Assembly (NCBI RefSeq): GCF_964026685.1
Contig: NZ_OZ034688.1
Span: 558,001-622,000 of the forward strand
Origin: Candidatus Providencia siddallii
Lineage (GTDB): Bacteria > Pseudomonadota > Gammaproteobacteria > Enterobacterales > Enterobacteriaceae
Length of the DNA: 64,000 nucleotides
Direction: 5' to 3'
The position numbers and the translations under genes were made by a program. The notes beneath the pieces were generated by a model. It was not told the DNA's origin. It did no database searches and worked only from the letters and a program-made list of their open reading frames with translations. Positions within the stretch are counted from its first letter, which is position 1. Each line of letters opens with the position of its first letter. Shown here piece by piece: positions 4,275 through 62,060 of this stretch.

Positions 4275-5012
4275 ATGTTTACTATTATTATACCTGCTAG
4301 ATATTCTTCAACACGTTTACCAGGAAAACCTCTCATAGATATCAACGGTAAACCAATGATTGTTAGAGTAATGGAACAAGCTATAAAATCTAATGCAAAA
4401 AGAATAATTATTGCAACAGATCATAAAGATATTGCTAACGTTATAACTAAAAACGGCGGAGAAATTTGTATGACAAATAACTACCATCGTTCTGGTATAG
4501 AACGAATAGCAGAAGTAATAAATATTTATAAATTTTCAGATGATGAAATTATTGTTAATGTACAAGGCGATGAACCATTTATTCCACCAGAAAACATTAA
4601 TAAAATAGCATATGATTTTTTAAATAAAAAAACTAACATGATTACGCTTGCCACTCATATTAAAAAAAGTCAAGATTTTTTAAATTCTAATATAGTAAAA
4701 GTTGTTATAGATAAACAAAATTATGCTATTTATTTTTCTAGATCTCCAATACCATGAAATGCAAAATATTTGTTTACAAAAAGTAAAAATACTAATAATT
4801 TATTACGTCATATAGGAATTTATGCTTATAATGCTGGATTTATACGTCATTATATCAATTTAGAACCTAGTCCATTAGAAAAAATAGAAAAATTAGAACA
4901 AAATAGAGTTTTATGGCATAGAGAAAAAATATATGTTAGTATTGTTAAAAAATATTATAATCATAGTATAGATACTTTAGAAGATCTAAAATCTATTAAA
5001 AACTTTAACTAA
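4275..5012 (+). CDS. kdsB: CMP-KDO synthetase KdsB, with in-frame UGA (Trp)
   Basis: 3-deoxy-manno-octulosonate cytidylyltransferase, activating KDO for the inner core of LPS. Nucleotidyltransferase motifs IIPARYSSTRLPGKPL, NVQGDEPFIP and RHIGIYAYNAGFI are clear. Codon 161 (4755-4757) is UGA in the sequence FSRSPIP-UGA-NAKY, exactly where E. coli has the Trp of ATIPWDRDRF; the frame continues unbroken to TAA at 5010, giving 245 residues (E. coli 248). The homology on both sides shows one working gene in which UGA is read as Trp. It follows lpxK by 20 bases, as part of the lipid A/KDO group. Confidence 0.95.
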
Positions 5013-43246: not shown

Positions 43247-44009
43247 TTATAACATATCTCCGTAATAGTAACCTAAAAATTTAAGTAATTTAAATTGTCT
43301 TTTTATACGTGTTAACTGTGATAATAATCTATACAACCATTCTAATTCAAATTTTTGCCAAATCTTTGGTGCTCGTTTTACATAACCTGTAAAAACATCA
43401 TATGTTCCACCTACCCCCATATAAATGGCATCATTATAAATTGCTTTACAATCACGAATAAAAATTTCTTGTTTAGGAGACCCCATAGCAACAGAAACGA
43501 TTTTAGCACCACTAAAACGAATACGTTCAAATAAATTTTCTCTTTCTTCAAAAGAAAAAAAACCATTTTGTGAACCTACTACATTAACATTTAACACAGT
43601 ACGTAATTTTTTTTCTGTTTTTTCTAAAATTTTTTGTTTTGCTCCAACTAAAAAAATTGGAATTCCTTTTTTTCCAATTACTTCCATCAATCTACACCAT
43701 AAATCAATTCCAGCAATACGAGATATTTGAACACCTGGGGTATTTACGACGAATAGCACGAACAATACTAATTCCATCAGCATATAAAAATTCAGCTTGT
43801 CTTAATAAATTATGTAATTTTTTATTTTTTTCAGCAATTATAACTTTTTCTGCATTAAGGGCTATTAAAATACCATTCTTAATTTTTCCATCAGCAAATA
43901 AAAAATCTATAAAATGTGATATATTTTTAAATCCAGAAACCATATGACCACGAATACTAAATTGAGGTATAAACTGATATATATTAGATAATTGTGTTGT
44001 TTTTTTCAT
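43247..44009 (-). CDS. wecG: WecG, UDP-ManNAcA transferase of ECA synthesis, with a one-base frameshift
   Basis: Adds ManNAcA to ECA lipid I to give lipid II. The first frame (from 44009, AAGGAAAA Shine-Dalgarno) encodes [11 protein letters not shown] and [17 protein letters not shown], then leaves the family; the +1 frame continues [13 protein letters not shown] through [20 protein letters not shown] and [21 protein letters not shown] to TAA. The switch lies at TAC-CCC-AGG-TGT (C4 run at 43737-43740); skipping one base gives YPGVQ, as in E. coli YPQAQ. About 253 residues when joined (E. coli 246). Both halves are well conserved, so this is a recent lesion, a recoding site or a sequence error. 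Confidence 0.8.
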
Positions 44010-44026
44010 AATTTTCCTTTTAAAAA

Positions 44027-45373
44027 TTATTTCATTATTATAATTTTTAAGTTATTTTTTTTAACATAAACAACCCCTGCATTTTCAAATAAACAATATA
44101 ATATTTTTGCAAAAATCAAACAAAAACCAAAAATTATACAAAAAAAGAAAAATCTTGATACAAACGAATCAATACCTTCACGAACTAAAACAATTATATT
44201 AAAAATCAAACTAAAACAAAATGATTTTAAAACAGAAGCTTTATAACGATTAGATTCTCTTAAACTTAAATTATAAATCCAATCAAACCATTTTATAAAT
44301 AAACCAACAACAATACCTCCAAGTGGAATAAAAAAAACTCCACCCATAATAATAAAAGAACCAATTAATGTTGGTGAAATAGATAAACCTGAATAATTAT
44401 TTAATATTTTCCAAGTAAAATAATTTGCTGAATTTAAAATAACATTAGGACGTTCAGGCCATACCCATGATGGGATAAACACATAAAAATCACGTATAAT
44501 TGGTGATAAATTTTGAAAATCTAATTTTTCATAATAACTTAATATTAATGCTAAATTTTCCCATGGAGAAAAAGTATCACGAGTAAAATATAACATTATA
44601 TAAAACAATTTATTCCAGCTAACATTAATTCCATATCTATTTAAAGCTAAAAAAAACATTATAACTATACTTAATATAAAAAAAACAATTAACATCCATA
44701 ATTTAATCCATTTACGATTTATGCCAATAAATAAAAATAACGAAAATGGAATAATAATATTAGCCCTAGTTCCACCAACTACAAAATAAGTAAAAAAACC
44801 AAATATAATAGTACTAAAAAGAAAAAAAAACCAACGTTTTTTGGTTGGTTTTAAAAAATAAATAATTAACATAGCAGGAATAAAAAAATAAAAAAATCTT
44901 TTTAACCCAACTAAAAATACTTGATTAGAAAAAATTTGATCATAAGATTTAAGTTTAAATAACAAAAAACCATTTTTCAAAAAAAATATAAAAATAGTAA
45001 TAATCGATATCAACATCAATAAAATACAAAATAAATTTATTTCAATTTTATTTATATTAAATATCATACGTCTTTTAGTACTTTTTAATACTGAAAAATT
45101 AGTATTATAAACAATATAATAAACTATATAAAAACTAATTGAAGATAATTGTGTATAAAACAAATATTCTGATTTTATAATACTTTCGCTAAATTTAAAT
45201 GTTAATATACAAGTTAATGGAAAACCAAAATAAAATGTAAGCAAAAATAAAAATGAAAAAATGACATTAAAATTCAATTTAAAATAAAAAAAATTTTTAT
45301 ATAACAAAATACTAATAAAAATAATTGATATAAAACAAAATAATGATAAACAAATTAATTCCATTAATGTCAT
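44027..45373 (-). CDS. wzyE: WzyE, ECA polymerase
   Basis: Polytopic inner-membrane polymerase that joins ECA trisaccharide repeats in the periplasm. 448 residues (E. coli 450). The start is ATG 45373 ([12 protein letters not shown]) with AGAGG about 8 bases before it inside the end of wecF; an earlier in-frame ATG at 45391 lies before that site. [59 protein letters not shown] and [15 protein letters not shown] are near E. coli. It starts 4 bases after the wecF stop. Confidence 0.94.
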
Positions 45374-45377
45374 TTTT

Positions 45378-46457
45378 TTACCTCTTTGCAAAAAGGCTTA
45401 AAACTATTTTTCAATTACAAACAAAATTAGGAGGAAAAAAATTAATTTTATTATTATTTAAATTAAATATTTGTTGTTTAATTTTATTTATTGAAAAAAT
45501 AGTAAATTTATTACCGTAAATAAAAACTGGAATATTTTGTAATTTTAAATCTTTTAAAAAAGTATTTTCTTTACTAATAACAAATGGAATACATAATTGT
45601 ATTAATAAACATATAGTTCCAATCCCTTGTTGACGATTAAAAATTAAATAACTTAAATCACAAGTTCTCAATAAACTAATATATTTATTAAAACTTAAAT
45701 ATTCTTTAATAACTATTACTTCTCCTAACTTAAACTTTTGATTTATAACTTTTTCTATTTTTCTAATATATGTTTGATTGTTATTAGGATATCCCATAGG
45801 AATAATAATTTTTACTTTTTCACCAAATTGTTTTTTAATTGCTATTAGTGCTTCTTCATGACGATTAGAAGAATCACCTGAATTGCCTAATAATATAGTT
45901 AATCGTCTTGTTACGCTAATTTTTAGTTTTTTTTTATTTAAAGATAAATCTATTTTTGTTGGAAAATATAATACAAAACTAGGAGTCTTAGGATTTATTT
46001 TATAATAATAATCTAAATCACCACGAGTAGCACATACATATCCAACTTTTTTATAAGCTAAACGTCTAAAAATATAAAAAATTTTAAATTTTAATGAATT
46101 AGATTCTTCATATAAATCAGCGCCCCAAATATGCCACCAAAACTGATATGATTTTATTCCTCCAAATAATAATCCTAACCAAATAAATACATTAAATTGT
46201 CCATGAAAAAAAAAACGATTATATCGATTATTAATCGCATTTTTTATTACATTTTTCGCAAGCAATAATTTATTATCAAAAGTTTTAATTTCTAGATTAG
46301 AATATATATTAATAATATTTTTATCTTTAGTTACAACAAAAAAAAGAAATTTTTTTAATAAAAATTTTTCTTTTAAAAAAAGTTTATTAAAAAAATTTAG
46401 TAAAGTATTATTATGATGTGAAATATTAGATCCTAATACATGTATCAATTTTTTCAT
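45378..46457 (-). CDS. wecF: WecF (RffT), Fuc4NAc transferase, with in-frame UGA (Trp)
   Basis: Adds 4-acetamido-4,6-dideoxygalactose to lipid II, completing the ECA trisaccharide lipid [45 protein letters not shown] and [15 protein letters not shown] are conserved. Codon 349 (45411-45413) is UGA in [20 protein letters not shown]. coli has PNYLQGWQRALAIAAGEVA, so it stands at a conserved Trp, and reading through to TAA at 45378 gives exactly the E. coli length of 359. The start ATG overlaps the wzxE UGA in ATGA. Confidence 0.95.
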
Positions 46458-47704
46458 ATCTTTTTATTATAAATAAAAAAAACGTAACAACATATAATAA
46501 AATATATAATATAAGTTATCATATACGCCTTTGTTGCTCCTACAGCACCATATAAAGGAATAAAATAATAAGATAAACCAACAAGTAAAAAAAACTGAGT
46601 TAATTCCGTTATAAAACAAAAAAATAAAGATGCTTTTGCAATAACAAAATAGCCAAACACATATGATCCTACTTTTAAAGTATTTCCTATAACTTGACAT
46701 AAAAACAATTTTTTCATATTTATGAAATTTTCTGAAAATAATAATAAAATAATAAATTCACGTAATAACCATATTACAAAACCAACAACAAAAATAACAG
46801 GTAAAACAAATTTTAATACTTTAATTATTTCTAAAATAATTTCTTTTTTATTAGATATACGAGAAAACGTAGATAATAAATAAACAGAAAATAATGCAGT
46901 AACAAATTGCAAATAAGCGTCAGAAATCATACAAACACCTGACCATAAACCAACTTCATACCAACTTTGACACTTAGCAAGTAAATTTCTTATTAAAATA
47001 TAAGCTATAGGTAAAGTTATTGATGTCATTATTGACATAATTGTAAATTTACTTAAATCAATTGCGATTGATTTATTCCAAATAGGAATTATTGCCAATA
47101 AATTAATTTTTTCTCTACGAATAATTATTACAATTGCAGGTATACCTATTAACGCAGGTATTAATGCTATTCCAACTAATGAACCTTTATATCCAAAAAA
47201 ATTATAAAATAAAAAAAATACAAAAAACCCAAAAAAAAATCCAATAATAATCGATTTAGCATTACCAGAAGCGTCACAATATCCTTTTAATATTGATAAA
47301 AAATAATTGGAATATGCAATTCCAATTTGAATAAAAGCTAAAATACATATAACTAAAGAATATTCTTTACTATTAAATAATAAAATACTAATAAAATCAC
47401 TAATTAATAAAAAAATAATTGCTAACAATATTGAAAAAAATAAAATAATCGATGATGCTGTTCCTAATAAAGAATATAATTTTTCTTTATCACGATCATA
47501 TTCTGCTACATATTTTATAATACCATTATAAATACCACCGCCAGACACAACTCCTAACACAGTTAGTAATTGACGAAAATTACTTGATAATCCAACACCT
47601 ATTGGACCAAAAAACACTGCTAACGATTTTATTATAATAAAACCTATCACTATTTTAATAAAAATAGAACTAGCAGTCCAAATTGAAATTTTAGTGAGTG
47701 ACAT
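46433..47704 (-). CDS. wzxE: WzxE, ECA lipid III flippase, UGA at ancestral end
   Basis: MOP-family flippase moving ECA lipid III across the inner membrane; multiple hydrophobic helices. It begins MSLTKISIWTASS (E. coli MSLAKASLWTAAS), with NFRQLLTVLGVVSGGGIYNG and SDAYLQFVTALFSVYLLSTFSR conserved. After 416 residues, the exact E. coli length, comes UGA (46454-46456) inside the ATGA overlap with wecF. If UGA is Trp, seven residues (WKNWYMY) are added to TAG at 46433; if RF2 still acts there it ends at 46454. The wecE 3' end overlaps its start by 14 bases. Confidence 0.92.
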
Positions 47705-48833
47705 TAGAAAAAAATATTTTAATTCGATTAATAACTATACTTTGTTCTTCATCTGTCATGTTATAAAATATTGGTAAACGTATTAAACGTTCACTATGAA
47801 AAGTAGTATTTTCATCTTTTCCATTAAATCGAGTAAATTTTATACCAGCTGGGCTAGTATGTAATGCTACATAATGAAATGCTGTTAATATACCATGAGT
47901 TTTCATATAATATGAAAATATCACTCGTTCATTTATATTTTTAAATTTTAAATAAAATATATGACCATTATTTTTAATACCTTCTGGAATAGTCATTAAA
48001 GTTATGTAATTAAAATATTCTAATTCTTTTAATTCTTTAAAATAACGTTTCCATAAAAATACACGACGATCATTAATTTTATCTGATTCTTCAAATTGCG
48101 CCCATAAATAAGCAGCTTGTAAATTAGATAATAAAAAACTTGATCCTATATCACACCAAGTATACTTATCGATTTGACCATTTAAAAATTTATTACGATT
48201 AGTTCCTTTTTCTCTAATTATTTCAGCACGATCAATTAAACTTACATCATTAATTAATATTGCTCCGCCTTCACCACCTGAAGAATAATTTTTAGTTTCA
48301 TGAAAACTATAACAACCTATATGACCAATAGTTCCAAGTATTTTCCCTTTATATGTAGACATTATACCATGAGCTGCATCTTCAATTACAAAAAGATTAT
48401 ATTTTTTTGCTATATTCATAATAACATCCATTTCACAAGCTATACCAGCATAATGAACAGGAACTATAGCACGTGTAAATTTTGTAATCGCTTCCTCAAT
48501 TTTAGTTTCATCAATATTCATTGTATCTTTACGAATATCTACAAAAACTATTTTTGCGCCACGTAAAATAAATGCATTTGATGTAGAAACAAAAGTAAAA
48601 CTAGGCATAATTATTTCATCTCCAGGACTAATATTAATCAATATCGATGCCATTTCTAGAGATGCTGTACAAGATGGAGTTAAATGAACTTTTTTACAAT
48701 TAAATTGTTTTTCCATCCAATTTTCACAAAGTTTTCCAAAATAATTATTACCAAATATTTTATTACTTTTTATCAATTGTTTTATATATATTAATTCTGT
48801 CCCAACAATAGGTGGTTTATTAAATGGAATCAT
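47691..48833 (-). CDS. wecE: WecE (RffA), TDP-4-keto-6-deoxyglucose transaminase
   Basis: PLP sugar aminotransferase making TDP-Fuc4N for ECA. 380 residues (E. coli 376). [51 protein letters not shown] and the PLP-lysine motif SFHETKNYSSGGEGG are family hallmarks. It overlaps wecD upstream by 14 bases and wzxE downstream by 14 bases, so the cluster is translationally coupled. Confidence 0.96.
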   Translation of the reverse strand: MIPFNKPPIVGTELIYIKQLIKSNKIFGNNYFGKLCENWMEKQFNCKKVHLTPSCTASLEMASILINISPGDEIIMPSFTFVSTSNAFILRGAKIVFVDIRKDTMNIDETKIEEAITKFTRAIVPVHYAGIACEMDVIMNIAKKYNLFVIEDAAHGIMSTYKGKILGTIGHIGCYSFHETKNYSSGGEGGAILINDVSLIDRAEIIREKGTNRNKFLNGQIDKYTWCDIGSSFLLSNLQAAYLWAQFEESDKINDRRVFLWKRYFKELKELEYFNYITLMTIPEGIKNNGHIFYLKFKNINERVIFSYYMKTHGILTAFHYVALHTSPAGIKFTRFNGKDENTTFHSERLIRLPIFYNMTDEEQSIVINRIKIFFSNVTH

Positions 48834-49560
48834 AGTTACCTCTATACAACCAATATGAAATATCCACTATTGAAGCCCCACTACATAAATAAAGATTTAA
48901 AGCAATATTATTACTAATTTGAGTTGTAATTTTTAATTGTTTTTTATTATTTTTTTTACACCATTCAAATACTGCTAACATTAATTTTTTACCTATATTT
49001 ACACCAGAAGATTTAGGAATTTTAGCTAAAAGACCAATTTGCGCCACATCTACACCAACATCACGTAAAGTTACAAAACCTAAAATTGTTTTATGCTTAT
49101 CTTTAATAAGCAAACAAACATTATCAAATGTACCTAAAACAGATTTTTTTATCCATAATGAATAAAACTCTTTAATTTTTTTTTTATTATACCATGGAAA
49201 ACGAAAACGAGTTTTTTCAAAAAAAATAATTGATGCAACCTCTGCTAATAAATCAATATCACAAACTTTAGCTACATAAACTTTTTCTTGTTCTAATAAA
49301 ACTGTTTTAAAAAAAGAATTATTAAAACTAATTTTTAATAATAAATTAATTTCACCTTCTATAAAAAAAAAACCAATTTTTCCTAAATTATCTATTAATA
49401 TTTTTTCAGATGACAACACTTTAGCATGAATAATATCAAATTTATCAAGATTACTAACCAAAATTCTATTAGAATTAACATTAAAATTTAATCTAGCTGT
49501 TAAACGATTAAAAAAATTAGATTCCCATTTTAAAAATTCAATATCAGCGAAAATACACAT
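48820..49560 (-). CDS. wecD: WecD (RffC), TDP-Fuc4N acetyltransferase
   Basis: GNAT acetyltransferase forming TDP-Fuc4NAc from acetyl-CoA. 246 residues (E. coli 224). [16 protein letters not shown] opens it; the acetyl-CoA-binding core is [27 protein letters not shown] and the end [15 protein letters not shown] matches E. coli SGANVESTAYWLYR. AAGGA precedes its ATG by 7 bases inside the rffH end. Its start overlaps rffH by 17 bases, or 44 if the rffH UGA is read through. Confidence 0.94.
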
Positions 49561-50419
49561 GAAGAATATCCTTCAAATATTGTCCATAACCTGTTTTTTT
49601 AAATCTATCCGCTGAAGATTTAAGTTGTTGATCACTTAACCAACCATTTCTCCATGCTATTTCTTCTAAACAAGCAATATTAAAACCTTGTAATTTTTCA
49701 ACATATTGAACAAATGTAGCCGCTTCAATTAGACTATCATAAGTTCCTGTGTCTAACCAAGCAAAACCACGACCAAGTAATTCTATATTAAGCTCATTAC
49801 ATTCTAAATACATTTTATTTATAGAAGTAATTTCTAATTCGCCTCTTTCTGAAGGTTTTACTTTTTTTGCAAAATCAACAACTTGTGAATCATAAAAATA
49901 TAATCCTGTTATTGCCCAATTACATTTAGGATTTTTTGGTTTTTCTTCTATAGATAAAACTTTAAACTTATCTGAAAATTCAACTACACCAAAACGACTT
50001 GGATCCATAACTTGATAACCAAAAATTGTTGCACCTTTTTTTCTTTTTGAAACAAATTTTAATTTAGGAGTAAATGAATGACCAAAAAAAATATTATCTC
50101 CAAGCACCAAACAACATGAATCTCCATTTATAAAATCTTCAGCAATAATAAAAGATTGTGCTAATCCATCAGGAGAATATTGTTCAGCATAATTCAAAAA
50201 AATACCAAATTCAGAACCATCACCTAATAAACGTTTAAACATTGGCAAGTCATTAGGAGTTGAAATAACCAAAATATCTCTAATTTCAGCTAACATTAAA
50301 ACTGAAAGAGGATAATAAATCATTGGTTTATCATAAATTGGCAATAATTGTTTTGAAATACCTTTAGTGATTGGATATAAACGAGTTCCATAACCACCAG
50401 CTAATAAAATACCTTTCAT
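49517..50419 (-). CDS. rffH: RffH, glucose-1-phosphate thymidylyltransferase, UGA near ancestral end
   Basis: RmlA-type enzyme making TDP-glucose for ECA Fuc4NAc. The start is ATG 50419 ([20 protein letters not shown]), matching E. coli; a GTG at 50467 overlapping rffG would add 16 unconserved residues. [46 protein letters not shown] and [12 protein letters not shown] are conserved. UGA stands at 49544-49546 after [15 protein letters not shown], close to the E. coli end (293 aa); Trp readthrough passes a second UGA and adds nine residues to TAA at 49517 (300 aa; 291 if UGA stops). Confidence 0.93.
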
Positions 50420-50456
50420 AATTTTAATTTTATATTTATAATTTGTATTATATACG

Positions 50457-51479
50457 TTAAAAATCACGTTTTATATATTTATTTAAAAACCATAACACAG
50501 TTTTTTTAATACCAGATTCAAATGTTTCAATTGGTTTCCAATTTAATTCTGTAATAATCTTATTGGAATCAATAGCATATCGAATATCATGACCAGGTCT
50601 ATCATCAACATATGTAACAAGATCAATATAACGAACAACTCCTAACGGTTTTTTAGGATGAAATTCTTCCAAAAGTTCACATATAATTTTAACTACATTA
50701 ATATTACTAAATTCATTATTGCTACCAATATTATAAATTGCACCAGGCTTAGCATTAGTTACAACTAGATATAACGCACGAACATGATCTTCAACGAATA
50801 ACCAATCACGAATTTGTTCACCTTTTCCATATATTGGAAAAGTTTTTCCTGATAATGCATTTAAAATAATTAAAGGTATTAATTTATCAACAGAATGATA
50901 TGGTCCATAATTATTCGAAGAATTAGTAATTAATATCGGCAAACCATAAGTTCTATACCATGAGTATACTAAATGATTACTAGAAGCTTTTGAAGCTGAA
51001 TATGGACTACTTGGAAAATAAGGTGTTTTTTCATTAAATAATTTTTCCGATTTATCTAAATCACCATATACTTCATCAGTAGAAATATGATGAAAACGAA
51101 AACTATTTTTTTTATCCTTATTCAACTGCAACCAATAACAATATGATAACTCAAGTAATGTATATGTTCCAACAATATTTGTTTTTATAAATATTTCAGG
51201 ATTTTTAATTGAACGATCTACATGTGTTTCTGCTGCCAAATGTAATATTGCATCTGGTTTATACTTAATAAAAATTTTTTTTAATGATAATTTATCACAA
51301 ATATTTATTTTTTCAAAAAAATAACGATCATTATCTATAACTTCAACAAGCGATTCCAAATTTGCAGCATAAGTTAAAGAATCAACTACAACTACTTTAT
51401 CTTTTGTATTTTTAATTATATAACGAACTACTGCTGAACCAATAAACCCTGCTCCACCAGTAACTATAAAACATTTCAA
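50457..51479 (-). CDS. rffG: RffG, dTDP-glucose 4,6-dehydratase
   Basis: SDR-family NAD enzyme producing TDP-4-keto-6-deoxyglucose. 340 residues (E. coli 355). Rossmann [24 protein letters not shown] with the catalytic Thr-Asp-Glu, [11 protein letters not shown] with Tyr-x3-Lys, and [15 protein letters not shown] are intact. The C-terminus stops (TAA) after [10 protein letters not shown], about 15 residues short of the E. coli tail, outside the active site. It begins 2 bases after wecC. Confidence 0.95.
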
Positions 51480-51481
51480 TA

Positions 51482-52741
51482 CTAAACTCCTTTTTTTATA
51501 TCTATAAAAAATTTTTTAGAAAAATATGAGTGTTGAATATTTTTAAAAATATCATGATCAACAAGCATTAAAAATATATCTGATTCATCAATAGCTTTTT
51601 CTATAGAAACTAATTCAGAAATATATAATAAAGAAGATGGTAAAACATTAATATAAGGCTCAACTATATAAGTTTTTCCTTTATTAAATTTCGCTATTTT
51701 TTTCGCTATATATATTGATGGACTTCCGCGTAAATCATCTATATTTGGCTTAAAAGATAAACCAAAACATGCAATTGTAATTTCATGTTCTTTTTTACAT
51801 ATCTTAATTAACAAATTTTTTATAATTTTTTTTACTTGATTAACAACCCAAATTGGTTTGTTATCATTAACAAAACGCGCAGCACGTATAAGAAATGATT
51901 CTTCTTTATTTTGATCAATAATAAACCATGGATCTACAGCAATACAATGTCCACCTACACCTAAACCTGGTTGTAAAATATTTACACGAGGATGTCTATT
52001 AGCAAGTTTTATTAATTCCAGTGTATTAATATTTTGCTTATGACATATCAAATCTAGTTCATTTGCAAAAGCAATATTTACATCACGAAAACTATTTTCT
52101 GTTAACTTACACATTTCTGCTGTTTTTGCATTCGTGATAACACATTTACCCTTAAGAAAAATATTATATAATTCTGTTGCTCGTAAAGATGATTTTTTAT
52201 TTATTCCACCAATAATTCGATCATTTTTAATTAATTCTTCTATAATTTTACCAGGTATAACCCTTTCAGGACAATATGCTACATCTATATCAGAATCAAC
52301 TAATTCTTGATGTGGAAAAGTTAAATCATGTCGAATTTCAGACATCCATCTAGATACTTTATCTGTTGTTCCAACAGGAGATGTAGATTCTAAAATAACT
52401 AAATCTCCTTTTTTTAATATTAAAGCAATTGATTCTGATGCTGCACGAACATATGTTAAATCAGGTTTTTTATTATCTTTTAAAGGTGTTTGTACTGCAA
52501 TAATATGTGCATCAGCACACTGTGGTTTACTAAAACCTTTTAAATAACCATCTGCAACAGCAGACTTTACAATTTCATCTAATCCTGGTTCAATAATATG
52601 TGTTTTTCCTTTATTGATCATATCAATCACATAATGATTAATATCTACTCCAAACACTTGTTTTTTACAAGATGCAAAAATTGCTGCTGTTGGCAAACCA
52701 ATATATCCAAATCCAATAACAGAAATAGTATTAAAACTCAT
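51482..52741 (-). CDS. wecC: WecC, UDP-ManNAc dehydrogenase
   Basis: NAD-dependent oxidase of UDP-ManNAc to UDP-ManNAcA for ECA. 419 residues (E. coli 420). N-terminal NAD-binding [37 protein letters not shown] and the catalytic-Cys loop [14 protein letters not shown] are conserved. It ends in TAG. The ATG overlaps the wecB tail if the wecB UGA is read through. Confidence 0.96.
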
Positions 52742-53867
52742 ATTTTCACCTAATTTTTTTTAATACTTTTATAATACGATAACAAGCTTTTCCATCACCA
52801 TAAAGATTATGTATCTGACTCATATTTTTATATTCTTCTTTATCAATTAATAATTTGTTTACTTCTTTTACTATTTTTTCTGTATTTGTACCAACAAGAC
52901 GAGCAACACCAGCTTTTATACATTCAGATCTTTCTGTTTGATTTCTCATGATAAGAACTGGTTTTCCAAGAAATGGAGCTTCTTCTTGAATACCACCAGA
53001 ATCAGTTAAAATCAAATAAGAAAGATTCATTAAATAAACAAATGACAAATATTCTTGAGGATTAATCAATATAACACGATCAATACCACGTAACATATAA
53101 TTTATTGGTTCACTTACATTTGGATTTAAATGTACAGAATAAATAATTTGAACATCCAAATGATTTTTAATAATTTCTAAAATAGCAAAACATATATTTT
53201 TGAAAGCTTTTCCAAAATTTTCTCTTCGATGACTTGTTACTAAAATTATTTTTTTATTAAAATCTATAAACGAATATTTATCTTTTAATGCTTCTGATAT
53301 ATTTTTATCATTTTTAATTTTATTACATACCCATAATAATGAATCAATAACTGTATTACCTGTAACAAAAATATTATCATTAGGAATTAATTCTTTTAAA
53401 AGATTTTTACGTGAATTATACGTTGGTGTAAAATGATATAACGCTAAATTAGCTATTATTTTACGATTACCTTCTTCAGGCCACGGAAAATATAAATTTC
53501 CAGTACGAAGACCTGCTTCAATATGTCCAATGTTTATACGATGATAAAAAGAAGAAATACTTGCAGCCATTGTTGTTACAGTATCACCATGCACTAATAC
53601 AATATCAGGTTGAAATTCATTAAACACTTTTTTCAATCCTTTTAATATAAAACATATAATATTAGTTAAATCTTGCATTGGATACATTATATTAAAATCA
53701 TAATCTGGTATAATGTTAAATAATTTTAACACTTGATCCAACATTTCTCTATGTTGTGCAGTTACACATATTTTTATTTCAAAACTTTTATCATCTTTTA
53801 TTAAACGTAATAATGGAGCCATCTTTATAGCTTCTGGTCTAGTACCAAATACACTTAATATTTTCAC
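52731..53867 (-). CDS. wecB: WecB, UDP-GlcNAc 2-epimerase, UGA near ancestral end
   Basis: Non-hydrolysing epimerase from UDP-GlcNAc to UDP-ManNAc. [20 protein letters not shown]-like [25 protein letters not shown] and [19 protein letters not shown] are hallmarks. After 373 codons (E. coli 376) comes UGA at 52746-52748; reading it as Trp adds WKYEF to TAA at 52731 (378 aa), overlapping wecC by 11 bases. E. coli ends at a similar distance, so which stop is used is open. Confidence 0.94.
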
Positions 53868-53906
53868 ATTAACTCTCTTAATTTTTTAATTATGTTTTTT
53901 AAAAAT

Positions 53907-54944
53907 CTATTTTTTTATCATTTTGTCATTTAAATTACGTCCTTTTAAAAAAACGAATATTACACCAACTAAAAATCCTATTATACCCCATAAAATTGTT
54001 ATAAATTCTTTTCTTGGACTATCACAATTAATTGGATTTTCAGGTGTTTTTAGATATCTATAACTCTGAAAATCATTTTTAATAACAAGATTTTTATTTA
54101 TATCTAATAACATATTATTATCATTACAAATATAACTGTTACCAATTTGCAACAATGGGATATCAAACATAAACATTTTATAATAAAAAAAATCATTAAT
54201 AAAAAAATAGTTTTTATTTTTTATAAAATCTTTTTTTAATACATAATTAAATTTTTCTTTTAACAAATTCAATCTTTCTTCATAAATATCTTTTATATTT
54301 ATATCTTTTGGTTTTTTAAAAAAATTAAATAACTGCATTTTTGTTTTTAAGATATTTTTAATTTCATTATTCAAATTATTTATAGTACGTGCGTTAGCAA
54401 AATCTACATATTTACGCAAAAGTAAATTAGAATCATCTGATGTTTCAGCAATTAATTTAATAGTATTAACATTACTCTTAAAATCATCTGATGATAAAAA
54501 TTCAATATTATTTATAAGCTCATCTAAAAACGCAATATCTATTTTAGAATTATTTGTCAACCTATTTTTATAATAATTAGTAGTTAACCAAAATTGACGA
54601 CGAGTATCATATGAAGTTAACTGTTTTATAAATTCTTGATAAACTTCTTTTGTTATTGTTACAAAATCTTCTTGAACAGTTTTATTAACGCATAAATCAA
54701 GATTATGAATAAGTTGTTTATTAAAATAATAATAACCAAGATTATTAATAGTTGGTAAGTCTGTAACTGCAGTAGCAGTCCATTTATATTTCATAAAACA
54801 TGATATAATAAACGCAATAAAAGCAAAAATAATACTAAAAGCAAAAATCAAAAATTTTTTTTTAAAAAATAAACGAAATAAACCACGAATATCTAATTCA
54901 TATTCCATTAAATATTGATTTTGATTATTATTTGAATTATCCAC
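53907..54944 (-). CDS. wzzE: WzzE, ECA chain-length regulator
   Basis: PCP1-family inner-membrane protein setting ECA polysaccharide length. 345 residues (E. coli 348). One transmembrane helix near residues 28-50 (FLIFAFSIIFAFIAFIISCF), a large periplasmic coiled-coil-rich domain, and a second helix near the C-terminus (ILWGIIGFLVGVIFVFLKG). The periplasmic part is diverged, but position between wecA and wecB and the topology are decisive. Ends in TAG. Confidence 0.9.
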   Translation of the reverse strand: MDNSNNNQNQYLMEYELDIRGLFRLFFKKKFLIFAFSIIFAFIAFIISCFMKYKWTATAVTDLPTINNLGYYYFNKQLIHNLDLCVNKTVQEDFVTITKEVYQEFIKQLTSYDTRRQFWLTTNYYKNRLTNNSKIDIAFLDELINNIEFLSSDDFKSNVNTIKLIAETSDDSNLLLRKYVDFANARTINNLNNEIKNILKTKMQLFNFFKKPKDINIKDIYEERLNLLKEKFNYVLKKDFIKNKNYFFINDFFYYKMFMFDIPLLQIGNSYICNDNNMLLDINKNLVIKNDFQSYRYLKTPENPINCDSPRKEFITILWGIIGFLVGVIFVFLKGRNLNDKMIKK

Positions 54945-54983
54945 TATATAAAAAACCTCTATATTTTATATAAAATATTATAT

Positions 54984-56054
54984 CTATCGAAAACGATGTT
55001 TAACCCGCTTTATAAAACGAGAAATTTTCCATGCACGTTTTATAAAATACCCATACATTACAAACAAAAACAAAAATAAAAATAACATAACCCATTCCAT
55101 CATAAATTTTGAATATTCACCAATAATACCAATAATAGCAATAAAAATTGCAAATAATGTAATCAAAATAAAAGCACCTTTTGCTGTAAACCCGGAACGC
55201 ATAATCAAATGATGAATATGTTGACGATCTGGAGAAAATGGACTCATTCCTTTACGTATTCTACGATACATAATAGCAATCATATCCATTAATGGTATTG
55301 CAATCAACCATAATGCTGTAACAGGATTAATAGAATGATATTTACCTTGAGTTGATTCTATTAAAATCCAAATAATAGTAAAACCAATTAAAGTGCTACC
55401 AGCATCACCCATAAATACTTTAAAACGAACACCAAAAATCCCAAGATTAAGAAAAATATATGGAATAATAGCTACTATAAAAGCAAAACACCAAAACGCA
55501 AGTGCATAATTATTGTTTTTATATAATAAAAAACCTAAAGAACTAAAAAATACTAATGATAAACCTCCTAATAATCCATCTATACCATCTATCATATTAA
55601 AAGAATTAATAGACGCCCATACTGCAAACAAAGTCATAATATAACTAAATGGTCCAAGTGATAATTCCCATGGACCAAACGCATTACCTAATGATTCAAG
55701 TTTAAGATCTGCTTTAGTCATCATAATAATAGCTATTATTGCTTGAATACCAGCTCTAAATTTTACACTAATATCAAATTTATCATCCAAAATACCAATA
55801 AAAACTAATATACCAGAACAAAAAATATACAACCATTTATTAGGAATATATTCGTTAGTAATAATTAATGCAAAACATATACCAAAAAATAAAGATACCC
55901 CCCCAACTAAAGGAATAAAACCTACATGCTTTTTTCTAAAATTAGGTTTATCAACTAACTCAAATTTAATTGCAAAAACTCGAGCAATAAAAATAAATAC
56001 TAATGTAAATAAAAAAACATAAAAAAGACTAATTATAAAATGTATAGTATCCAC
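54984..56054 (-). CDS. wecA: WecA, undecaprenyl-P GlcNAc-1-phosphate transferase
   Basis: First committed enzyme of ECA (and O-antigen) synthesis, polytopic inner-membrane protein. 356 residues (E. coli 367). VDKPNFRKKHVGFIPLVGG, FIGILDDKFDISVKFRA (Asp-Asp), SFNMIDGIDGLLGG, FMGDAGSTLIGF and PFSPDRQHIHHLIMRSGF (His motif) are all intact. The C-terminal basic tail is shorter than in E. coli. It opens the ECA cluster downstream of rho. Ends in TAG. Confidence 0.97.
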   Translation of the reverse strand: MDTIHFIISLFYVFLFTLVFIFIARVFAIKFELVDKPNFRKKHVGFIPLVGGVSLFFGICFALIITNEYIPNKWLYIFCSGILVFIGILDDKFDISVKFRAGIQAIIAIIMMTKADLKLESLGNAFGPWELSLGPFSYIMTLFAVWASINSFNMIDGIDGLLGGLSLVFFSSLGFLLYKNNNYALAFWCFAFIVAIIPYIFLNLGIFGVRFKVFMGDAGSTLIGFTIIWILIESTQGKYHSINPVTALWLIAIPLMDMIAIMYRRIRKGMSPFSPDRQHIHHLIMRSGFTAKGAFILITLFAIFIAIIGIIGEYSKFMMEWVMLFLFLFLFVMYGYFIKRAWKISRFIKRVKHRFR

Positions 56055-59458: not shown

Positions 59459-60559
59459 ATGACTTTTGAAAAAAAACAAATAAAAAGTAAAATTCAATAT
59501 ATATTTGAACGAATAATTATATTAAAAAATTTTTTTGATTATAATAAAAAGAAAAAACGAATAGAAGAAATTAATCAAATACTTGAACAACCGTATATCT
59601 GAAAAAAAATTAAACAAATAGAAATTTTAAATAAAGAACGTTCATTTCTTAATACAATAATCAATAATATTGATCAATTAATTAAAAAAAATGAAGATAT
59701 TAAAAGTTTATTAGAACTTGCATTAGAAATAAATGATGAAGAAGCATATAATGAAATATCTTTTGAACTTAATCAATTACAAAACAAATTAATTGAACTT
59801 GAATTTCACAGAATGTTTTCTAAAGAATATGATATATCTAATTGTTATATTGATTTACAAGCTGGATCAGGAGGAATTGAAGCACAAGATTGGACAAACA
59901 TGTTACTTCGTATGTATTTACGTTGGGCTGATTCAAAAGAATTAAAAACAGAAATAATTGAAGAATCTTTTGGTGATATTACTGGCATAAAATCCGCAAC
60001 AATAAAAATTATAGGTAATTATGCTTACGGGTGGTTACGTACAGAAACAGGTATTCATAGATTAGTACGTAAAAGCCCATTTGATTCATGCAAGCGACGT
60101 CATACATCATTTAGTTCAGTATTTATCTATCCTGAAATTGATAATAAAATAAATATTGAAATTAACTTATCTGATTTACGAATTGATGTATATAGATCAT
60201 CTGGAGCTGGTGGACAACATGTTAACAAAACAGAGTCTGCAGTACGAATAACACATATTCCAACAAATATTGTAACACAATGCCAAAACGATCGTTCGCA
60301 ACATAAAAATAAAGATCAAGCCATGAATCAATTAAAAGCAAAACTTTATAAATTAGAAATCCAAAAGAAAAATGAAAATAAACAAGCCATTGAAAAAAAT
60401 AAATTAGATATTTGTTGGGGGAATCAAATTCGTTCTTATATACTAGATGATGCAAGAATAAAAGATTTACGAACTGGTATAGAAACACGTAATATACAAT
60501 CAGTATTAGATGGTGATTTAGATAAATTTATTAAAGGTAGCCTAAAAATAGGACTTTAA
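59459..60559 (+). CDS. prfB: Peptide chain release factor 2, no frameshift, with in-frame UGA (Trp)
   Basis: Class I release factor for UAA and UGA. 366 residues (E. coli 365). At the normal programmed +1 site (E. coli RGYL-UGA-C) this gene reads KNFFDYN in one frame: one base is missing and the internal AGGGGG Shine-Dalgarno is gone. Codon 48 (59600-59602) is UGA in LEQPYI-UGA-KK, the Trp of E. coli EQPDVW. The recognition loop is [13 protein letters not shown]; other RF2s have SPFDSxGRRHTSF. The catalytic loop [16 protein letters not shown] is normal. lysS starts one base after its TAA, as a conserved pair. Confidence 0.96.
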
Positions 60560-60560
60560 A

Positions 60561-62060
60561 ATGTCTCAAGAACAAGATTTTAATAATTCAAATAACGAAT
60601 TTATTAATCGTAAAAAAAAATTATATGACTTTCATAAAAAAAATATTCCTTTTCCAAATGATTTTCGTCGTGAAAACACTTCAGATGAACTTCATAATAA
60701 ATATGATAATAAATCAATTGAAAAATTAAAAAAATTAAATATAAAAGTATCAATTGCTGGTCGAATGACAACTCGACGTATCATGGGTAAAGCATCATTT
60801 GCAACATTAAAAGACATTGGAGGATACATTCAAATTTATGTTTCTCAAAATAACTTATTAAAAAATTTATATTACAAACAATTTAAAATATTTGATTTAA
60901 GCGATATTTTAGGTGTAAAAGGAATCTTATTTAAAACAAAAACCAATGAATTAACTATTCGTTGTCATGAAATTTATTTATTAACAAAAGCACTTAGACC
61001 ATTGCCAAATAAATTTCATGGATTAATAAATCAAGAAATGAAATACCGTCAACGATATCTTGATTTAATTTCAAATGATGATTCTCGTAATACATTTATT
61101 ATAAGATCTAAAATTTTATTAGAATTACGATATTTTATGGCTAAAAATAATTTTATAGAAGTTGAAACTCCATTAATGCATATGATTCCAGGAGGAGCTT
61201 CAGCACGTCCATTTATTACACATCATAATGCATTAAATACTGATATGTATCTAAGAGTTGCACCTGAATTATACTTAAAAAGATTAGTTATTGGTGGTTT
61301 TGAACGAATATTCGAAATAAATCGTAGTTTTAGAAATGAAAATTTATCTACATCTCATAATCCTGAATTTACAATGATGGAACTTTATATAGCATATGCT
61401 AATTATCATGATTTAATAAAATTAATTGAAAAATTATTAAGAACACTAATAGAAAATATATTAAAAAAAACAATCATCCAATATGGAAAACAAGAATTAG
61501 ATTTTAGCAAACCATTTAATAAATTAACAATGAAAGAAGCTATTTGCAAATATAATCAAAAAATAAAAATCACAGATCTTAATTGTAAAAATAAAATAAT
61601 TTCTATAGCTAAATCATTTGAAATAAAAATTGATAAAAATTGGGGATTAGGACGAATTCAATTTGAACTTTTTGAAAAACTAGTAGAAAAGCATTTAATT
61701 CAACCAACGTTTATAACAGAATATCCAACAGAAATTTCACCTTTAGCGCGTTGCTGTAATGATAATCCATTTATTACAGAACGATTTGAATTATTTATAG
61801 GAGGACGTGAAATTGCTAATGGATTTTCTGAATTAAATGATTCAGAAGAACAATCTAAACGATTTATTATGCAAATAAATAAAAAAGAAAAAAATGAACA
61901 AATATTTTATGATAAAGACTATATAACTGCATTAGAATATGGATTACCACCAACAGCTGGTTTAGGAATTGGAATTGATCGTGTTGTAATGTTATTAACT
62001 AATAAACATACTATTCGCGATGTTATTTTTTTTCCAATTTTACGTAACATAAAACTTTAA
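60561..62060 (+). CDS. lysS: Lysyl-tRNA synthetase
   Basis: Class IIb synthetase charging tRNA-Lys. 499 residues (E. coli 505). N-terminal OB anticodon domain ([23 protein letters not shown]), class II motif 1-2 region ([52 protein letters not shown]) and motif 3 ([21 protein letters not shown]). One-base spacing from prfB indicates translational coupling. Ends in TAA. Confidence 0.97.

Follow-up and report, generated by a model that had tools for sequence, protein, structure and literature searches.

The window, which is the whole stretch of 64,000 nucleotides that was analysed, carries a gene for release factor RF2 (prfB, 59459-60559, plus strand), which has 366 codons and encodes a product of 366 amino acids under code 4. 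The product matched the RF2 family profile (TIGR00020) with 470 bits against a cut-off of 370, and its residues 3-366 could be aligned with the E. coli RF2 of solved structures (E=1.2e-164). In the alignment with other RF2, the codon-reading motif SPF (60074-60082, plus strand), the RHTSF segment just after it and the catalytic motif GGQ (60209-60217, plus strand) were all unchanged. The downstream neighbour in the ORF list is lysS (60561-62060, plus strand). The gene is genuine and its position exact, and the first-pass annotation, which had described a full-length RF2 gene with intact GGQ beside lysS, was confirmed in this respect. But "full-length" holds only if an in-frame TGA at codon 48 (59600-59602, plus strand), which that annotation had not seen, is read through. 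Under the standard code the open part is only a 248-aa internal ORF without domain 1, which starts from ATG 59813 (59813-60559, plus strand, ORF list), because codon 48 is TGA.

The base after this TGA is A. In a comparison of 127 RF2 sequences, 125 others had a residue in the codon-48 column, which was Trp in 123 of them, and the codon is TGG in G001, the sole same-genus genome among the 60 searched, which was used as sister species. The genome under study consists of a single contig of 755,758 bp, and the sister contigs total 843,819 bp. When species genomes were scanned, Providencia supplied the named RF2 loci that matched best, while a tree of RF2 gave no firm position among Morganellaceae. 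A change of GG to CK at residues 211-212 was considered as a change of specificity, and this recognition-loop idea was dropped because many of the aligned small genomes vary at this spot too.

Between the two species the prfB products share 74% identity over 366 codons each, with dN 0.159, dS 0.559 and dN/dS 0.28; the median identity over 108 ortholog pairs above 150 aa was 70.6%. For residues 119-366 dN was 0.106 and dS 0.638, and for residues 1-118 they were 0.28 and 0.392. In relative-rate tests with six outgroups, 24-26 unique changes were found in this genome and 26-28 in the sister, without excess in either, and the end branches were 0.32 and 0.33. Judged from these rates, prfB is under purifying selection at a rate equal to the sister's, with domain 1 loosely held in both species; relaxed selection in this lineage, for which the first-pass annotation had proposed a dN/dS check, was not seen with one sister and six outgroups. 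RF2 could in principle be made from ATG 59813, so that UGA48 removes a dispensable part. Both RF domains were matched in the 248-aa ORF, PCRF from position 95, and domain 1 evolves faster than the rest of the product (54% against 83% identity). However, the frame and length of domain 1 are kept in both species, it is equally fast in the sister that lacks UGA48 (11 unique changes against 10 here, no excess), and a ribosome-binding sequence before 59813 was not evident by eye, so an internal start is considered very unlikely.

The slip site CTTTGAC of the known +1 frameshift control was found in all of the 80 best prfB loci from named genomes, and the corresponding CUU UGA C was absent from prfB of both this genome and G001, where the frame is continuous. 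A remnant of the region (AAT TTT TTT GAT TAT, 59528-59542, plus strand) is one base shorter than the region with the slip site. Since the site is missing in both species, the known RF2 autoregulation was probably gone already in their common ancestor. Loss of the site through single-base deletion is known and repeated, according to the available part of PMC13245932. UGA48 lies about 22 codons past the frameshift region in a UGA-A context, and of the two genomes only this one has it. An in-frame UGA with the frame continuing beyond it had been imagined for RF2 before the gene was sequenced, and a 2016 review (PMC5009743) states that it is in none of the sequenced genes; in the open-licence literature no published in-frame UGA inside prfB was found either. 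As a separate observation, TAA replaces TGA at the prfB frameshift site in four small enterobacterial genomes (G022, G030, G031 and G034; loci L154, L155, L156 and L157), giving CTTTAAC, CTTTAAT or TTTTAAC, and TAA is also read by RF1.

For the use of UGA in other genes, 464 kb of this genome (of 756 kb) were compared with 696 kb of G001, which yielded 337 ortholog pairs, kept only if non-overlapping in order to exclude shadow ORFs; an unfiltered count of 237 TGA/TGA pairs was swamped by such ORFs and discarded. At the TGG codons of the sister, this genome has 783 TGG, 44 TGA, one TAG and no TAA, the rest being other sense codons, so that TGA makes up 44 of the 827 TGG and TGA codons, spread over 36 of the 337 pairs. 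This number of TGA at Trp sites greatly exceeds what chance would give. In an earlier and smaller reverse comparison of 131 genes, zero TGA were found in the sister at the TGG codons of this genome. The genes with TGA at Trp sites include ileS, pheT, priA, fbaA, murJ, ispE, rplD, birA and that of oligoribonuclease. Under a standard code these genes and prfB would have to be decaying pseudogenes or sequencing errors, a reading that might be favoured by the reduced genome and by a few stops which lie away from gene ends and opposite non-Trp residues or gaps (TAA 9, TGA 5 and TAG 2 in the 337 pairs). TGG changes to TAG as simply as to TGA, so decay fails to explain a ratio of 44 to 1, which already refutes this reading for the bulk of sites. 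In addition, the affected genes include dnaB besides ileS, pheT and rplD, the frame beyond TGA is conserved, and both the dN/dS of prfB and the strong bias in the following base described below argue against decay. A standard code is thus scarcely credible, and the earlier claim that UGA means Trp here was borne out by the comparison.

Against solved homologues, TGA faces Trp in PdxH, DnaB, KdsB, Alr (two sites), SufB, RsmD and RF2. In the window these codons, all on the plus strand, lie in kdsB (4755-4757, next base A), sufB (14246-14248, A), pdxH (23824-23826, G), rsmD (34713-34715, G), dnaB (38368-38370, G) and alr (39378-39380 and 39792-39794, both A), and sufD has a further in-frame TGA (15647-15649, plus strand, next base A). 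The TGA of kdsB and pdxH are not part of the 44 counted; they belong to ten extra in-frame TGA collected by hand (kdsB, pdxH, sufD, asd, trmB, lolA, apbE, rimM, a moeB-like gene and menA), three of which (sufD, moeB-like and menA) face Leu rather than Trp in the sister. Part of this set came from a comparison holding shadow frames, including rRNA-like stretches, whose totals were not used.

In pdxH, lolA (L167, 15205-15828), apbE (L270, 3472-4446) and rimM (L270, 16117-16659), TGA stands at the same Trp codon as in G001, the sister copies being taken from L190 and the joined G001 contigs C2 and C3. The frame beyond the shared TGA is conserved in all four, and T is never the next base in either species. 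With four TGA common to both, it seems that UGA was to some extent read as Trp before they split. The sister genome shows what looks like an earlier step of the reassignment. A 2023 study (Manzano-Marin, Kvist and Oceguera-Figueroa, GBE evad164) reportedly described an alternative genetic code in Ca. Providencia siddallii of the leech Haementeria acuecueyetzin and claimed that the change is lineage-specific, a claim which the four shared TGA would seem to qualify.

The 44 Trp-site TGA are followed by A in 37 cases, G in six, C in one and T in none, whereas the 783 TGG at such sites are followed by A 248, T 239, G 173 and C 123 times (Fisher p 4e-12 for A and 4e-7 for T). With the ten extra TGA included, the next bases were A 43, G 9, C 2 and T 0 (n=54), the main figure staying at 44. 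Synonymous NNG-to-NNA changes in twelve codons were followed by A 716, C 399, G 367 and T 644 times, from which Trp-site TGA differed likewise (p 1.3e-11 for A and 2.7e-7 for T); since these changes lack the bias, it is not a mutation context. In three mollicute phages, which stand in for an RF2-less control and are not a matched bacterium, Trp-site TGA were followed by A 41, G 21, T 15 and C 15 times, and this genome differed from them as well (p 1.4e-5 for A and 0.0026 for T). Only annotated CDS of the phages were used, those cut or spanning the record start being left out and overlapping ones counted each. The Spiroplasma hosts are not known to have RF2. Mycoplasma reads UGA as Trp and lacks RF2, according to the part of PMC2704378 that was available. 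In the RF2 search, a very small genome of the same order (G098, a 237,114-base contig) had only an RF1-level match, and its same-genus relative G115 keeps RF2. G098 was tried as a matched RF2-less control and rejected, for neither it nor G115 gave convincing UGA=Trp in a table that also paired shadow frames; in G098 this refers to the 100 kb sampled.

Misreading of UGA by tRNA-Trp is especially likely when A follows, and readthrough is low when U follows, as stated in the available part of PMC5289835. Trp-site UGA therefore lies largely in readthrough-prone contexts, and this held against TGG, synonymous changes and phages alike. With U after none of the 44 and A after 37, UGA is evidently still selected against in strong termination contexts, and the simplest agent is RF2. 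On a plain reading of the bias, RF2 still acts at UGA and has purged TGA from those contexts.

The gene ends were scored as well, and TGA was found at about 19 of 297. There were 22 initially; pdxH, apbE and rimM were taken out by hand, as both species conserve the frame past their TGA. The next base of these 19 is T 13, A 5 and G 1, which differs from the hand-enlarged set of 54 Trp-site TGA (p 3e-10), while T follows 13 of 19 terminal TGA against 113 of 253 terminal TAA, a difference that is not significant (p 0.057). The gene rpsK ends with TGA-T where the sister has TAA, and the next TAA or TAG is 41 codons on. The gene miaA also ends with TGA-T, and if this were read as Trp the frame would continue through hfq into a MiaA-Hfq fusion. 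In a block of the window that resembles surface-polysaccharide genes (44000-56000), several genes, with minus-strand ends at 46454, 49544 and 52746, use TGG internally but finish with a TGA that overlaps the following gene or lies close to it.

Some of the TGA-ended genes could have short C-terminal extensions. On a rival reading all terminal TGA would be of this kind, with UGA fully Trp and the retained RF2 specific for UAA, a function that the first-pass annotation had offered as one possibility and that was proposed for the symbiont XS4 by its authors (PMC12213064). The many conserved Trp with UGA, the purifying selection on RF2 and several TGA-ended genes that reach TAA or TAG within 1-10 codons would agree with it. 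However, the complete avoidance of T and the preference for A after Trp-site TGA would not be expected once UGA had ceased to encounter RF2, the SPF, RHTSF and GGQ segments are unchanged, readthrough of miaA would give the fusion above, and the sole tRNA-Trp has the anticodon CCA. Full reassignment is accordingly held to be unlikely, and a UAA-specialised RF2 found no support. The other possibility offered by that annotation, an intermediate stage of reassignment, fits the fraction of Trp codons that are TGA, the TGA gene ends, the retention of RF2 under purifying selection and the kept tRNA-Trp(CCA).

As to the decoding parts, all 33 of 33 tRNA matches were typed, and they contain a single tRNA-Trp, with anticodon CCA; the tRNA-Trp(UCA) that the first-pass annotation had suggested looking for was not among them, and a further search likewise gave one tRNA-Trp match. 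By eye in the alignment, the anticodon stem of the tRNA-Trp(CCA) has 5 bp, its A9 and G24 are unchanged, and the open top pair that leads to a 4-bp stem was not seen. A9C, G24A and the 4-bp stem are the changes discussed as helping UGA reading in the available part of PMC13092985. Compared with most relatives, tRNA-Trp of both genomes (G000:C1:226194-226266 here, G001:C3:116386-116458 in the sister) has one extra base in the D-loop, and in both genomes no CCA end is encoded. TrpRS, PrmC, MiaA and RF1 had matches over the cut-off with zero internal stops, so that prfA, also named in the first-pass annotation as something to look for, is present and intact. RF3 (prfC) had zero matches over the cut-off in this genome and in G001. 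Low RF2 could be the reason why the unaltered tRNA-Trp(CCA) reads UGA, though tRNA modification, ribosomal change or abundant tRNA-Trp may also account for it.

From the sequence we infer, as the probable explanation, that UGA is decoded in two ways in this genome, readthrough by tRNA-Trp(CCA) competing with an RF2 that still terminates and that would limit itself through UGA48. The ordinary tRNA-Trp(CCA) would misread UGA as Trp if termination is weakened by the base that follows, in UGA-A and less often in UGA-G or UGA-C, while RF2 would keep terminating at UGA, above all at UGA-U. Selection would then tolerate drift from TGG to TGA almost solely where the context favours readthrough, and RF2 would be retained for the work left at UGA and UAA. 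In the prfB mRNA, the +1-frameshift control has been lost and UGA-A gained at codon 48, so that full-length RF2 could come only from ribosomes that read UGA48 as Trp. With the frameshift control lost, RF2 synthesis should depend on UGA readthrough, and as RF2 competes with the Trp reading of UGA48 it should limit its own synthesis.

Whether UGA48 does useful work in this dual decoding is a second matter, for it may have been selected or have drifted in. A gene with five Trp codons, as prfB, has a chance of about 26% to carry at least one TGA at the genome rate, so drift alone would make its TGA unsurprising. UGA48 might then be a passenger of genome-wide ambiguous decoding, with efficient UGA-A readthrough, an RF2 dosage that is hardly affected and no useful feedback. 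We regard this as a serious possibility, though at somewhat under even chances; the 36 pairs with Trp-site TGA speak for it, as does the lack of an excess rate, or of any special context beyond UGA-A, in prfB. On the other side, if RF2 terminates at UGA48 at all it represses its own synthesis, by logic and not by data, and the tRNA change that would make readthrough efficient was not seen. A stronger version of dual decoding can be put forward tentatively, as a conjecture that may well be wrong: RF2 would be made only when its level is low enough to let tRNA-Trp(CCA) read UGA48, and this throttle, arising after the loss of frameshift control, would keep RF2 low, so that UGA-A becomes Trp throughout the genome and UGA-U stays a stop, the code change being driven by the release factor and not by the tRNA.

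The ambiguous-intermediate stage of codon reassignment has been much discussed and rarely caught. Here the genome would hold a codon-by-codon record of how RF2 and tRNA-Trp compete, written in the base that follows each UGA. A UGA in the reading frame of the RF2 gene corresponds to the control circuit imagined before sequencing (PMC5009743). The system lets one ask if a genetic code can begin to change through a fall in release-factor dosage and not through a change of tRNA.

This genome is probably that of the H. acuecueyetzin symbiont of the 2023 study, and both have a reduced genome and a code change at an intermediate stage. Two elements were already known, namely the code change of the probable organism from 2023 and the retention of RF2 with UGA=Trp in XS4, a Fastidiosibacteraceae symbiont (PMC12213064). 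Subject to the 2023 study, two things appear to be new: a UGA within the RF2 gene, and the record, in codon context, of RF2 competing with tRNA-Trp. XS4 resembles this genome in having UGA=Trp, an RF2 with conserved codon-contacting residues and a single tRNA-Trp(CCA) (PMC12213064), whereas its tRNA-Trp has a 4-bp anticodon stem against 5 bp here (PMC12213064), and a UGA inside the RF2 gene, present here, is not mentioned in the covered parts of that paper. The first-pass annotation had held that bacteria with UGA=Trp usually lose prfB; this is the usual course according to the available parts of PMC2704378 and PMC8204192, but XS4 is an exception. According to the available part of PMC2704378, Hodgkinia and Mycoplasma also have UGA at conserved Trp but no RF2, and Hodgkinia has tRNA-Trp(UCA); in this genome RF2 is kept and only CCA exists. 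A table 4 code as in Mycoplasma and Hodgkinia would leave no gene ends at UGA, in contrast to the TGA gene ends counted here. In E. coli-type +1 frameshift autoregulation of RF2 there is, as here, an early in-frame UGA that must be bypassed for full-length RF2 (PMC5009743); in this genome, however, the slip site is gone and the frame continues past the UGA, so that the bypass would be readthrough with Trp.
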